Below are positions 29,854 through 36,886 of a stretch of DNA of 64,000 bases, in pieces. Every line of letters starts with the position of its first letter. Positions within the stretch are counted from its first letter, which is position 1. Under the pieces are notes generated by a model that saw only the letters and a program-made list of their open reading frames with translations, had not been told where the DNA came from and made no database searches. The translations under genes were made by a program, and so were the position numbers. Source of the DNA: Bacilli bacterium (GTDB lineage Bacteria; Bacillota_I; Bacilli_A; RF39; UBA660); contig JAFRUZ010000002.1 in the NCBI GenBank assembly GCA_017438635.1, positions 1 to 64,000 on the forward strand. The letters are read 5' to 3'.

Positions 29854-30198
29854 TTAATAATTACAACAAGAACCACAATCTACATTAGTACATACATTTT
29901 CTTCACAACATGAGTAATCTGGTCTATAAGTATGTTTAAAAATATGATGATTGATTATTTTAGTTCTAATTGGACAAACATGTGGAACTATATGTTCAAA
30001 AGTCCTATTTACAACTCTTTCTCTCATAGGTTCAATAATTGGAGTCCCAGTACTTACACCTCCGAAACTCATTGGACCATTATTTAAATTTTGGCCTTGT
30101 TCAAAATCAATATCAATAGTACCACTATTGTTAGTAATATCAATTGCACCATCTTGACCAGGCATCATAAATGGATTTTGATTAGCATTATCAAACAT
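29854..30198 (-). CDS. cotD: CotD-like spore coat protein
   Basis: 114 residues. The first 60 are Asn/Gly/Pro-rich and low in complexity. The second half, FEHIVPHVCPIRTKIINHHI then FKHTYRPDYSCCEENVC, matches the CotD inner-coat family with its pattern PHxxPxxTxxxNHHxxxH. It ends in a Cys cluster (CCEENVC, CGSCCNY) suited to cross-linking. TAGGAGG lies before the ATG. It is a single gene between terminators. With spoIVA and yutH it supports an endospore life cycle. The His content is lower than in Bacillus CotD. Confidence 0.75.
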   Translation of the reverse strand: MFDNANQNPFMMPGQDGAIDITNNSGTIDIDFEQGQNLNNGPMSFGGVSTGTPIIEPMRERVVNRTFEHIVPHVCPIRTKIINHHIFKHTYRPDYSCCEENVCTNVDCGSCCNY

Positions 30199-30294: not shown

Positions 30295-32682
30295 TTAGAA
30301 TATTAACATAGCCATGCAAAGTATTATTACTGATGCAAGAGCAAGAGATAGTATTACTTTTAATACCCATTTTAACCAAGTAGTATATTCTACACCTGCT
30401 AAAGCAAGACCAGCCATTATAGCACCACAAGTTGGTGTAAATAGATTAACTAATCCATTAGCAGCAACTATAGTCATTATACTTGATTCTACATTGTAGT
30501 TAAGTTGTGCAGCAAGAGGTCCAATAATTGGTGCAGATATTGCTGCAAGTCCACTAGAAGATGGAACTAAGAATGATAATCCTACATGTAATAAATAGTT
30601 AAGTGGTGTAAATAGTAATACTGGCATTCCTTTTAATCCTTCTGCAGCATTATATATTATGTAGTTATCTAAATGTGTAACTCCCATAAGTATTGTAACT
30701 CCACGAGCTACAGCAATTATAAGCACAACACTTAATATATCAGAAGCACCAGCTACAAAGTTATCTACAATTCCTTTTTCACCTTGCTTATTAATGATTC
30801 CAATTATAATTGCTGATATAAAGAACCATAATGCAGCGTCAAAGAACCACCAATCGCCAAGAGCTGCTCCTGTTAAGAATGAAGAGAATGATAACCATTT
30901 AGTATCTACAAATTCTCCCCAAGGAATGAATCCAAATACCATTACTAAGAATGTGAAAGCAAATATCCATAATGTAGCTTTTTGTCTACCAGTTAAACTA
31001 ACTTTTTCTGGATTCTTTTCTTCCTTACCATATTTCTTTTCCATTACTTTTTGTTCTTGTAATGATAAGAATGTAGATCCTTTATCTTTCTTTACCTTAG
31101 CAGCATAAGCCATAACAAATGCAACGGAAATACCAAGAGATACTAACCATAATGCTACACCAACTACCATGATTATACCTTGATTAACTGCTAACCCTTC
31201 AGGAAGTGCTGCTATCGCTGCTCCTGTTGCAAATGGGTTAACTGTAGATCCTAGAACCCCAGAACCTGCCCCTAATAATACTACTGCTGATGCAACAATA
31301 GTATCCATACCTGCAACTACCATAGTTGCTGCTAAAAGTGCATAGAATCCTACTGTTTCTTCAAGCATACCATATGTTGTACCTCCAATTGAGAAGATAA
31401 ACATAAGGATTGGAATAAGTATTAATTCACGCCCTTTTAGTTTTTGCACTAGAGCTTGTATACCATTTTCTAAAGCTCCACTTGCTGATACAATGTTTAG
31501 GAACCCTCCTAAAACAAATATGAAAATACCCACATCTATGGCATTCTCAAATCCTAGAATTGGAGCCATCAGTATATCTGATAATTTTGCTCTTACTACT
31601 CCTGAACCATTTACTATTTCATCATCAACAAAACGAGCTTGTGGTAAGAAATAAGTAATAATGCCAAGAATAATTATAAGAAGTAAAATAATTGAAAATG
31701 CTGATAACCCAAATTTTAGGTTTTTCTTTTTGGCTTCTTTTTTATTAGCCATCTTTCTATCCTCCTTTATTTCAGAACAAATAACAGTTCCAGTATTACC
31801 TCTTACAGCATCAAGTACTTTGTTTAAGGAAGTAATAACAGAATCCTTATTTGTTTCTACCGAAAACTTTAAACATGCTTTTATCTTAGGTAGCATACTA
31901 CCTTCTGCAAACTCAGAAGAAGACATATATTCATTAATTAATTTTTCATCTAAATATCTAATCCTTTGTTGATTCTTTTTACCATAATTTAAATATGCAT
32001 AATCAACATTAGTTAAAATTATAAATTTATCTGCCTTTATCTCTTTAGCAAGTAATGAACTTGATAAATCTTTATCTATTACTGCATCAACACCTACTAA
32101 TCTATCTCTAGTCCGTACTACAGGAATTCCTCCACCACCACATGCAATTACTATATTACCTTCATCTATTATCTTTTTAATTGCATCTATTTCAACTATT
32201 TCTTGTGGTTTTGGAGAAGGAACTACTCTCCTATAACTTTTGTTCATATATTCTTTGAAAACATACCCTTTTTCTTTTTCAAGAGCCTTTGCTTCTTTTT
32301 CTCTTAAAAAATTACCAATAGGTTTCGTAGGATTATTAAATGCTTCATCATCTTTGGATACTACTACTTGAGTAGTAACTGATACACATGTTTTCTTTAT
32401 ATTTCTTCTTTTTAATTCATTAGTTATAGATTGTCCTAAATGATAACCTATATAACCTTGGCTCATTGCATTACACTCTGGAAAAGGTATTTTATTATCG
32501 CCATTATCAAGTGCACTATTTATCATGCCTACTTGAGGCCCATTTCCATGAGTTATAACTACACTATATCCATTTTCTACTAAATCTACTATTTTCTTTG
32601 AAACATTTTTTACTTGTTTTAACTGTTCTTCATTAGTATTGCCTAAAGCATTACCACCAAGAGCAATTACTATTTTTTTCAT
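30295..32682 (-). CDS. arcC: Carbamate kinase fused in frame to a YfcC/ArcD-type transporter
   Basis: Residues 1-310 are a complete carbamate kinase: [31 protein letters not shown], ending GNTGTVI. It makes ATP from carbamoyl phosphate, the last step of the arginine deiminase pathway. Without a stop the frame runs into a YfcC-family carrier of about 485 residues with some twelve hydrophobic segments, the type that serves as arginine/ornithine antiporter ArcD. The junction holds AAAGGAGG and an ATG at 31752 (residue 311, [11 protein letters not shown]). The transporter can therefore also be translated alone. The start overlaps arcB by ATGA. Either a true bifunctional fusion or a lost stop codon. 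Confidence 0.85.
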
Positions 32683-33666: not shown

Positions 33667-34893
33667 TTAATCCTCCCTTATAAGTGGCATACTCATACAA
33701 CGAGGTCCACCTCTTCCACGAGAAAGTTCAGCACTTCTCATTTCTAATACAGTTATTCCAAATCTTCTAAGAACATCATTTGTAACATTATTTCTGTCAT
33801 ATACTATTACCACTCCAGGAGCTATACATAAAGTATTAGAACCGTCATTCCATTGCTCTCTTTCAGCAGCTACTGGGTCACCTCCAGCACATGGTATTAA
33901 TGTAATTTCTCTTCCTAAATGTTCTTCAAGTATTTTATTAAGCATTCCACTTCTAGCTTTTACGTTTATATCATCTTCATCTTCGTCACCTTTTGTTATC
34001 TCATATACTTTAAGAGTACTTACGATTCCTGGATGATATGTGAATTTATCAACATCTATTTGAGTAAATACTGTATCTAAATGCATGAAAGCTCTACTTT
34101 CTGGAATTCTAAATGCAAGTACTGTTTCAATTGTAGCATCAGGATCTTTAAATATATTTCTAGCAAGTGTTTCAATAGCATTTGCACTTGTTCTTTGAGA
34201 TATTCCTATTGCTAATACTTTATCATTTAGATTAAGTATATCTCCACCTTCAATATTATACTCATTATATCTATCAAAATATTTTGGAGTATCTTTAAAG
34301 TCTGGATGATGATTAAATATATACTCTGCATATATTGTTTCTCTATTTCTAGTTACAGAATACATCTTATTTAAACTTATTCCATTACCTATAGAAGCAA
34401 AATCATCTCTCGTAAAATATAGATTTGGCATTGGATCAACTATAAACTCAGAATCACTTTCTATCATATCAATCAAAGATTTACCTTTTTTTGCTTTTTC
34501 TACAGTTATTTCTTTTATATTGATACCTTCCATTGTTTTTAATACTAATTGTCTACTTGACTTTATATCCATCAAAAAGTCATATACAAGTCCTCTGAAC
34601 TTTGGAGTTCTTACACCAGCCTCGTATATGTATTGTTTTATAAATGTTTCTTTTATTTCTGGATCCAAATCTAATACTTCTGTCATTAAGTCTTCCAAAT
34701 AAACAACTTCTACTCCATTATCTTTTAATATCCTTGCAAATTGATCATGTTCTTCTTGAGCTACCTTAAGATATGGTATATCATCAAAAAGAAGTCTTTC
34801 CAAAGTATCTGGAGTTAAATTTAATAATTCCTTTCCTGGTCTATGTAACAATACTTTCTTTAGTGGTTTAATTTCACTTTTTATATTAATCAT
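33667..34893 (-). CDS. arcA: Arginine deiminase
   Basis: Hydrolyses arginine to citrulline and ammonia, giving ATP and acid resistance through the pathway. Guanidino-group enzyme motifs are visible: [20 protein letters not shown] and the nucleophilic Cys in [12 protein letters not shown] near the C terminus. 408 residues, the usual length. The ATG at 34893 is preferred over the adjacent GTG at 34896. First gene of the arc operon, behind a leader with a terminator and antiterminator. Confidence 0.95.
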
Positions 34894-34940
34894 CACTTAC
34901 CCTACCTTCCTTATTCTAAAAATATTATACAACATTCTAC

Positions 34941-35012
34941 AAAAAAAGAAAAGCCTTTTTTACAGGCTTTTCAGAATAAGATTACCCAGTTTAGGCTCTC
35001 CCTTATTATTCC
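34941..35012 (-). promoter_or_regulatory. arc operon leader: terminator with competing antiterminator
   Basis: The RNA starting near 35012 reaches a terminator (GAAAAGCCT 34964-34972 with AGGCTTTTC 34948-34956, then T7) before arcA. An upstream element GGGAGAGCCT (34993-35002) can pair over ten bases, three of them G:U, with the same AGGCTTTTCT, preventing the terminator. A short stem AATAAG/CTTATT (35002-35007, 34975-34980) encloses about 21 bases and could be the sensing part, since it would occupy the edge of the antiterminator. There is no reading frame for a leader peptide and no T-box signature. This looks like a small riboswitch or protein-binding attenuator of unknown ligand. Confidence 0.6.
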
Positions 35013-35018
35013 AATTCT

Positions 35019-35047
35019 AATATAATATATTAAAAGAAAAATGTAAA
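35019..35047 (-). promoter_or_regulatory. Promoter of the arc operon
   Basis: TTTACA (35042-35047), 17 bases, TATATT (35019-35024). It lies upstream of the attenuator. A second TATAAT without a -35 (near 34923-34928) after the terminator might allow weak constitutive arcA transcription. Confidence 0.7.
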
Positions 35048-35105
35048 CACTTTGAAATAAAAATGTAATAATTTGACATATAATATGTAAATATAATACA
35101 AATAT

Positions 35106-35130
35106 AAAAAGGCGATTAATATCACCTTTT
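35106..35130 (-). terminator. Terminator of the LCP gene
   Basis: AAAAGG..GAT pairs with ATC..CCTTTT with one mismatch, abutting the stop codon and followed by T on the minus strand. Confidence 0.6.
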
Positions 35131-36886
35131 ATTCACCCACATCATCAACAGGTTCAGTAGTATCTGCTTCTCCCCCAGTAGAAGTGCCAGGATCATCTGG
35201 ATTATCTCCAGGAGTAACAACTTCCCCAGTAGGTTCTTCAGGATTTGTAATTACTTCTTCAGTATTCTCAGTTACCTCTTCAGTTGTTTGTTTCTCAGTT
35301 GTTTTCTTTTCTTCTTTCTTAGGAGTTACTTTCTTAGTAACTTTTTTCTCATTACTAGAAGTATTTGTAGTTGTAGACTTATATACTGCACTCTTAGTAA
35401 CAGTATGAGAATTGCTACCATCACCATCATATGAAGATTGTAATACTTCTCCATCTACTACTTTCTTAATCATTTCTTTAGAAAGTTTAATTGATTCTTC
35501 ATCAGGAACAGTTACATAAAGACTTTGATATGGATAAGTATATGTATAATCCATACTTCCTGTACCTGTTAGACTATTTGATGTAATAGTCCATTTAGAA
35601 TTATCTCTAAGTTGCATCTTAGCAAGTTTAATTATATTTCTCATAGGCATATCTGTAATCATACTATCCTCTAAAGAGTTTAATAATGAATTATATTTAA
35701 TAATAATTGAAGGTTTTGTACATTTTCTAAATATTGCTTCAATCATAGCTTGTTGATTCTTACCTCTTTGATTATCACCAGCATTAAATGTTTTTCTTTC
35801 ACGTACAAATGATAATGCTTCCTTACCATTTACTCTGTTATATCCTTTACTAAAGTTATAACCATTCCAACTTTGGAAATCATATTCAGAGTATACATCT
35901 ACTCCTCCCAAAGCATCTACTATATTAACTAGACTACTAAAGTTAACTTTAAAGTAATAATTAATTTTAATACCAAGTAAATCTTCAATAGTAGCAACAG
36001 AAGTATCAAGTCCATATATACCAGCATGTGTTAGCTTATCTTTATATCCATCAGTATCATGTAATTGTACATAATAATCTCTTGGAATATTTGTCAGTAA
36101 TATTTGCTTAGTTTTTGGATTAATAGTAATAACCATATTAACGTCACTTCTAGAAGTCTCTGCTACTTTGCCATATTGATCCATACCACTTATATAAATA
36201 TTAAATACATCTTTTGTAACATTTAAGCCATCTGATTTTATAGGCATCTTAACTTTAAATGTATATAAAACTCTTGTTTTATCACTAAAGCCTTTTATTG
36301 ATGCATTACCAGATTTTTCTAATTTTGCTTGTTGAGAACTTTCTAGTAAAATTCCTGCAATTTTTCTATTGAATAAACTTGTTGCTAAAGATTCTAAGTT
36401 TCCATAGCCAACATTAGTAGTTTTAACTTTATTAGTAAGTGTACTAAGTGCTTTCTTAGTAGCATCACTATTATCGTTATAATACCCTAAATTCTTATCT
36501 GCAATATCAGCAATATCTTTATAAACACTTTCAGATCTTACTAATACGTTATAAGTATATTCTTTATATTCCATACTCATATCATCTAACAATCCTAATG
36601 TCCTATAAATAAAGAATGAAGCTCCTAAGAATAGAACACATAATAGAAGTGCTAAAACAGTAAAGAATCTTCTAGGTTTTTTTCTTATTTTTCTCTTAAA
36701 CAAAAAGAAATTTATAATAAGGTTTATAAGAAATAGTACTCCTATAAATATAGATAAATACTTAATAGGAAGAACATTTGAAAGAAGTACTATTCCTAAA
36801 AGTATAATTGAACATATCATGAATAACATACCAACTACTTTATAGCCAGTAATTTTCTTTTTTCTATTGTTTTTACGTTTTCCCAT
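35129..36886 (-). CDS. LytR-CpsA-Psr (LCP) family wall polymer ligase
   Basis: A membrane enzyme that transfers anionic polymers from the lipid carrier to peptidoglycan. It has a very basic N terminus, three membrane helices (about residues 15-100), then an extracellular LCP domain. That domain has LTNIPRDYYVQL, KLTHAGIYG, the phosphate-binding RERKTFNAGDNQRG and GGVDVYSEYDF. The last 95 residues are rich in Thr, Glu and Pro, a flexible tail reaching the wall. 585 residues is long for the family. GAAGGAG precedes the ATG and is abutted by a small hairpin (36901-36918). Confidence 0.9.
   Translation of the reverse strand: MGKRKNNRKKKITGYKVVGMLFMICSIILLGIVLLSNVLPIKYLSIFIGVLFLINLIINFFLFKRKIRKKPRRFFTVLALLLCVLFLGASFFIYRTLGLLDDMSMEYKEYTYNVLVRSESVYKDIADIADKNLGYYNDNSDATKKALSTLTNKVKTTNVGYGNLESLATSLFNRKIAGILLESSQQAKLEKSGNASIKGFSDKTRVLYTFKVKMPIKSDGLNVTKDVFNIYISGMDQYGKVAETSRSDVNMVITINPKTKQILLTNIPRDYYVQLHDTDGYKDKLTHAGIYGLDTSVATIEDLLGIKINYYFKVNFSSLVNIVDALGGVDVYSEYDFQSWNGYNFSKGYNRVNGKEALSFVRERKTFNAGDNQRGKNQQAMIEAIFRKCTKPSIIIKYNSLLNSLEDSMITDMPMRNIIKLAKMQLRDNSKWTITSNSLTGTGSMDYTYTYPYQSLYVTVPDEESIKLSKEMIKKVVDGEVLQSSYDGDGSNSHTVTKSAVYKSTTTNTSSNEKKVTKKVTPKKEEKKTTEKQTTEEVTENTEEVITNPEEPTGEVVTPGDNPDDPGTSTGGEADTTEPVDDVGE

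Follow-up and report, generated by a model that had tools for sequence, protein, structure and literature searches.

The stretch of DNA analysed here, referred to as the window, comprises 64,000 nucleotides of contig JAFRUZ010000002.1 from a Bacilli bacterium (genome G000 below), and it was compared with four other genomes of the genus (G001 to G004; five congeneric genomes in total). On the minus strand, the genes follow in the order of an LCP-family gene (35129-36886), a short RNA unit, arcA for arginine deiminase (33667-34896; PF02274, E 1.2e-123; TIGR01078 above its cut-off), ornithine carbamoyltransferase, a carbamate kinase-YfcC-type fusion, and a CotD-like gene (29854-30198), the last of which was assigned by PF11122 (26.7 bits against a cut-off of 22) and by synteny. 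The fusion joins arcC (carbamate kinase) to a YfcC/DcuC-type transporter in one frame of 795 codons (30295-32682, minus strand; L074:790-3177). A frame of equal length is found at the same place in G003, domain searches having covered the G000 copy, and among the literature matches listed no fusion of carbamate kinase with YfcC was named by title.

The unit between the LCP-family gene and arcA consists of a promoter, a short purine-rich segment, a hairpin and a terminator, all on the minus strand. The promoter, TTTACA-17-TATATT (35047-35019), agrees with the consensus at 10 of 12 positions and was the best of five promoter-like sites in the 401 bases scanned, where 2.1 were expected; it predicts that transcription starts near 35012. 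The RNA would begin with GAATAATAAGGGAG (35011-34998), a Shine-Dalgarno (SD)-like string of 14 bases that does not vary among G000, G001 and G004; at another site in G000 (locus L114), this string stands ahead of a start codon. The strong intrinsic terminator, GAAAAGCCT-7-AGGCTTTTC followed by T7 (34972-34941), has a 9-bp stem and a 7-nt loop and was one of two found in 401 bases, with 0.2 expected. A sequence-only reading of this DNA had described a promoter and then a complete terminator with a nine-base stem and T7 before arcA, and both could be located. Likewise, the stem AATAAG (35007-35002)/CTTATT that it had noticed, enclosing 21 bases, is seen in the sequence as part of the weak P1 hairpin (35007-34975), in which, by the consensus of three orthologues, AATAAGG (35007-35001) would pair with TCTTATT (34981-34975). 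A possible antiterminator (35004-34945) would be formed by AAGGGAGAGCCT (35004-34993) and AGGCTTTTCTTT (34956-34945). The ten-base pairing with the 3′ arm of the terminator that had been proposed is conservative, because 12 contiguous pairs including G-U can form. The upstream sequence had also been said to mimic the 5′ arm exactly; GGGAGAGCCT and GAAAAGCCT do share AGCCT and a purine run, but the match is incomplete.

Both genes that can follow the unit appear to have promoters of their own. Downstream of the terminator, TATAAT (34929-34924, minus strand) is a candidate -10 of arcA, aligned by eye with the arcA promoter of G003: it is followed by 24 bases ending in TAGGG, and the same spacing is found after the TATAAT of G003 arcA. 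The corresponding -35 in G000 is poor, and the consensus scan reports no promoter there. From this alignment, arcA probably starts from its own -10 just past the terminator. The CotD-like gene is preceded in all five congeneric genomes by a conserved block, TTATACA ... GAATA.TATA.ACTAGATAGGAGG, after arc or unit alike (by eye). With these apparent promoters, neither gene needs read-through from the unit, though either may use it.

In each of the five congeneric genomes, the strongly conserved promoter and 5′ UTR block of the CotD-like gene has ACTAGATAGGAGGAT.TATAATG at its end. The gene itself is divided in some of them. For example, in G001 it is split by about 9 kb (G001:C2:5702-14564, L145), and the insert carries a large serine recombinase adjoining the right junction together with DNA methyltransferases, while in G003 two parts lie on separate contigs (C13 and C89; L146, L147). 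We take the split gene to resemble recombinase elements that interrupt spore genes.

Conservation and neighbourhood in relatives

The unit is found at the corresponding place in two congeneric genomes, G001 (95% complete) and G004 (93% complete), where the promoter reads TTTACA-17-TATACT; the promoter and the first 14 transcript bases are preserved in all three genomes. Between the transcripts of G000 and G001, 59 of 63 aligned bases are identical (94%), and seven of the eight gap positions fall in the terminator loop. Between those of G004 and G000, 51 of 54 aligned bases are identical, with 22 gap positions. The LCP genes of G000 and G001 share 70% identity at the protein level and 57% at 139 fourfold sites. 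It is the conservation in G001 and G004 that raises the element above chance, and the promoter-hairpin-terminator unit is, to judge from these alignments, maintained by selection.

The genes around the unit are more variable. G004 has the order of LCP gene, short-chain dehydrogenase gene (PF00106), unit and CotD-like gene, and G001 has the same with a shorter dehydrogenase-like reading frame; an arcA match is absent from both. In G003, three arc reading frames are followed by the CotD-like gene, and arcA comes after a long reading frame and a terminator-like site; its promoter is a plain TTTACA-16-TATAAT, with no unit directly before the gene. The dehydrogenase contig of G003 ends 9 bases past the stop codon, so that a unit distant from arcA may exist beyond the contig end. 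In G002 (52% complete), the apparent end of an arc operon precedes the CotD-like gene, and the contig ends inside the operon. Hence arc is present in G000, G003 and partly G002, and the unit is present with arc in G000 and without an arcA match in G001 and G004. A tree of LCP proteins (G002 not included) places G000 next to G001 as its sister (100/99), and G004 and G003 branch outside this pair. Between the two sisters, the presence of arc thus changes while the unit stays. Since G001 and G004 keep the unit in the absence of an arcA match, the RNA is set apart from arginine catabolism, and an attenuator specific to arginine is disfavoured on the same ground.

We therefore lean, tentatively and at slightly less than an even chance, to a separately promoted and terminated small RNA of about 70 nt, not to an arginine sensor, and arcA would probably use its own -10. 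The sequence features expected of such an RNA, a promoter and a terminator of its own and a conservation independent of the next gene, are found. The neighbourhoods could also have arisen in another way. The CotD-like gene is the neighbour of arc in G003 too and, up to the contig end, in G002, so that an ancestor may have had the order unit-arc-CotD; after two deletions of arc, the unit might be what remains in G001 and G004, although its conservation speaks against decay of this kind.

Folding and alternative pairing

The 89-nt region of the unit is more stable than all of 200 shuffles (z -2.65). For the part 5′ of the terminator, shuffles folding at least as well numbered 14 of 200 in G000, 34 of 200 in G001 and 157 of 200 in G004; this part is unremarkable on its own by folding. 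The minimum-energy folds of G000 and G004 alone use other registers of P1 than the consensus stem AATAAGG/TCTTATT. In an alignment of the three orthologues (A3), all seven P1 pairs are standard in all three sequences, and the two that vary do so on one side only. All seven pairs of the terminator stem are standard as well, and two are changed on both sides, in G004. The helix covariation of A3 was matched in score by 62 of 500 shuffles, three sequences having low power. Both helices, P1 and the terminator, can form in the two relatives, where two pairs of the terminator show compensatory changes; on three sequences and with little power, this favours the sequence-only reading, which had named conservation of both helices as a test.

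The alternative pairing could make the unit a true attenuator, a reading that we hold possible but doubtful. The 5′ purine run would compete with the 5′ arm of the terminator, and a signal, which may be a ligand, a protein or a ribosome at the SD-like sequence, would set the read-through into arcA or the CotD-like gene. The layout is suitable, with a promoter and then a complete terminator directly before arcA, and arc may be controlled in a way other than by ArgR, as no Arg_repressor match was obtained in the five genomes of the genus, of which one is 52% and another 80% complete (the control matched in 9 of 14 genomes). The element does not travel with the arc genes among relatives, however; the gene that follows there is a different, unrelated one, and the apparent promoters of arcA and the CotD-like gene also speak against control by read-through.

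The pairing itself can be read in both directions. It comprises 12 contiguous pairs in G000, 10 in G001 and 7 in G004, and on A3 standard pairs fill 30 of 30 cells, above versions slid by one to three columns (50.0-90.6%), but none of its pairs has changed on both sides in the three sequences of the alignment. The duplex energy of -15.3 kcal/mol is the best among the 17 window terminators tried with the 5′ part of the unit, and only the terminator of the unit has at least ten pairs with its own upstream 60 bases. Against this stands a null of base composition, in which 36 SD-like segments of the window were combined with the tails of the 17 window terminators: at least ten pairs were reached in 130 of the 612 combinations and at least 12 in 29, and with the terminator of the unit itself at least ten in 10 of 36 segments and at least 12 in 3 of 36. 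Furthermore, for the 5′ part of G004 the terminator of G000 is a better partner (8 pairs) than that of G004 itself (7 pairs), and the GCCU that reinforces the helix of G000 meets only GC in the terminator of G001. When the 5′ arm of the terminator is held unpaired, the G000 fold becomes 8.6 kcal/mol less stable, and G001 then favours P1 over the antiterminator. Judged by these pairings, the alternative helix is a real possibility, in good part expected from base composition, and unproven. The case illustrates how easily an SD-like purine run beside a terminator is mistaken for an antiterminator.

It is unlikely that the unit is a functionless relic, that is, the promoter and ordinary SD-bearing 5′ UTR (GAATAATAAGGGAG) of a gene or operon that was lost or moved, now capped by the terminator. 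Such an origin would explain why these 14 bases are also found ahead of a start codon at L114 and why the SD-like sequence of G000 is followed by no ATG, GTG or TTG before the terminator; it agrees poorly with 94% identity of aligned bases against 57% at fourfold sites between G000 and G001, and with the two double-sided changes in the terminator stem.

Further members and hairpins at arcA starts

Searches were extended to the 386 genomes of the family. The pattern GGGAGAGCCTAAACTGG, with up to two mismatches, was matched in seven of them, but a promoter and a terminator surround the match only in G000 and G001 (by eye), and G004 is missed by this pattern. A covariance model trained on the units of G000, G001 and G004 matched 61 of the 386 genomes at E≤0.05, the three training sequences scoring 72.6 to 93 bits and the next best 36.5. 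In a re-search of 26 loci, three of them training sequences, the seven non-training sequences among the ten alignments listed match the terminator, without GGGAG..CCUAA. By pattern and covariance model together, no further member was found among the family genomes. An exact-pattern scan of genome contigs gave three stretches, those of G001 and G004 and one in a Kangiellaceae contig, and the scan of viral contigs gave no match. The unit appears confined to this genus within the collections searched.

A covariance search over arcA upstream regions had been suggested as a check of the sequence-only reading. At 33 arcA loci of the family, the model scores high only at that of the window (82 bits); three of the 32 others give 18 to 20 bits, the best of them 20.3. 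The proposal that the RNA controls arginine catabolism is not borne out: other arcA loci score at most 20.3 bits, arcA of G003 is without the unit, and two species keep the unit before a CotD-like gene with no arcA match.

Some arcA upstream regions of the family have a feature of another kind, a short perfect hairpin with a loop of mostly purines, placed a few bases past the -10. For example, the hairpin is GATAATAG-GGAGG-CTATTATC at L173, TAGTAGG-GAG-CCTACTA at L139 and TATAGTA-GGG-TACTATA at L136, and further examples are seen at L143, L166-L168 and L172. Binding of CsrA to the GGA of the hairpin was considered and rejected, since no CsrA match was obtained in any of the five congeneric genomes (the control matched in 3 of 14 genomes). 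Because the lengths of loop and stem vary, an RNA hairpin would fit better than a fixed DNA operator.

By a rule set post hoc, after the hairpins had been noticed, a stem of at least seven pairs lies at the predicted start in 12 of 35 arcA promoters against 5 of 75 control genes (Fisher p 4e-4, relatives and related genera not being independent). The 35 are what is left of 53 unique upstream stretches after 18 without a promoter by the rule of the script were set aside; the 53 derive from 71 loci, from which duplicates and unfound starts were dropped, arcA of G000 being among the unfound. Among the 12 with a hairpin, the promoter is doubtful at L128 and L153. A cruder earlier count was weaker: stems of at least six pairs occurred at 12 of 45 arcA promoters, while 16% of 2394 promoter-like sites had one as well. 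To our knowledge, a small 5′ hairpin of arc transcripts with a purine-rich, often SD-like loop has not been described as a control element, and the arcA-start hairpin is a separate lead for control of arc without ArgR.

The unit of G004 can start with a similar hairpin, a weak fold equalled by 157 of 200 shuffles. One may imagine that arc transcripts of the family often begin with the purine-loop hairpin, and that this genus, in which no ArgR was found, split off the element as an independent terminated RNA that survived the loss of arc. We count this whole reading as improbable; its part that makes the unit a detached form of the arc hairpin, drawn from resemblance only, shares in that estimate.

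The small RNA and known systems

With the separate small RNA as the favoured reading, the promoter of the unit would give a minus-strand RNA of about 70 nt, which would start near 35012, end at the terminator at 34941 and act as a separate RNA. The unit would be an old element of the genus. On one side it has the LCP gene, in some genomes together with a short-chain dehydrogenase gene, and on the other a neighbour that varies, the arc operon in G000 and the CotD-like gene in the two relatives. Should it prove real, a small RNA or leader specific to one lineage would be present in bacteria that have small genomes and belong to an uncultured family.

That no known riboswitch, T-box or leader peptide fits, as had been stated from the sequence, agrees with the searches. 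Rfam gave nine matches at gathering score in the whole window, all of them tRNA, and at E≤10 five matches in 34880-35130, of which the best, BTnc231, has 17.9 bits where the gathering score is 80.4. From the predicted 5′ end to the terminator there is no ATG, GTG or TTG in G000, and in G001 a single TTG occurs, bordering on the terminator (both by eye). Translation from CTG was rejected as well, because the short peptides that it would give in G000 and G001 are unrelated and G004 has no CTG at this place (by eye). In the literature, no arginine riboswitch or arginine-sensing RNA tied to arginine deiminase was found, and no arc leader was named by title among the matches listed.

There are several known systems with a related layout. 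In guanidine-IV and Gd4v riboswitches, as described in the cited texts, a pseudoknot joins the loops of a first hairpin and of the terminator (PMC7736828, PMC11611296, PMC9788692). Like the unit, guanidine-IV (PMC7736828, PMC11611296) and Gd4v (PMC9788692) consist of a small hairpin and then a terminator, theirs being regulatory, and in the window the gene that follows acts on a guanidino compound; that the unit is of this type is nevertheless highly improbable, since there is no Rfam match (4227 models, among which guanidine-IV was not confirmed), the terminator loops differ among the three orthologues with no common complement in the first hairpin loop (by eye), and the pseudoknot of these riboswitches has no conserved counterpart in the unit (PMC7736828, PMC11611296, PMC9788692).

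Premature-terminator attenuators of unknown signal, in the outline given by PMC2965389, are similar to the unit in having a promoter, a leader with possible alternative pairing and a terminator before a gene; unlike in those, the gene after the unit varies among relatives and appears to have its own promoter (PMC2965389). For the separate small RNA, the comparison is ArgX of Lactococcus lactis, which, according to the cited account, is located after argR and lowers the arc mRNA (PMC6586332). ArgX and the unit are both short RNAs with their own promoters and a connection to the arginine deiminase pathway; they differ in that no Arg_repressor match accompanies the unit and that relatives without arc retain it (PMC6586332).
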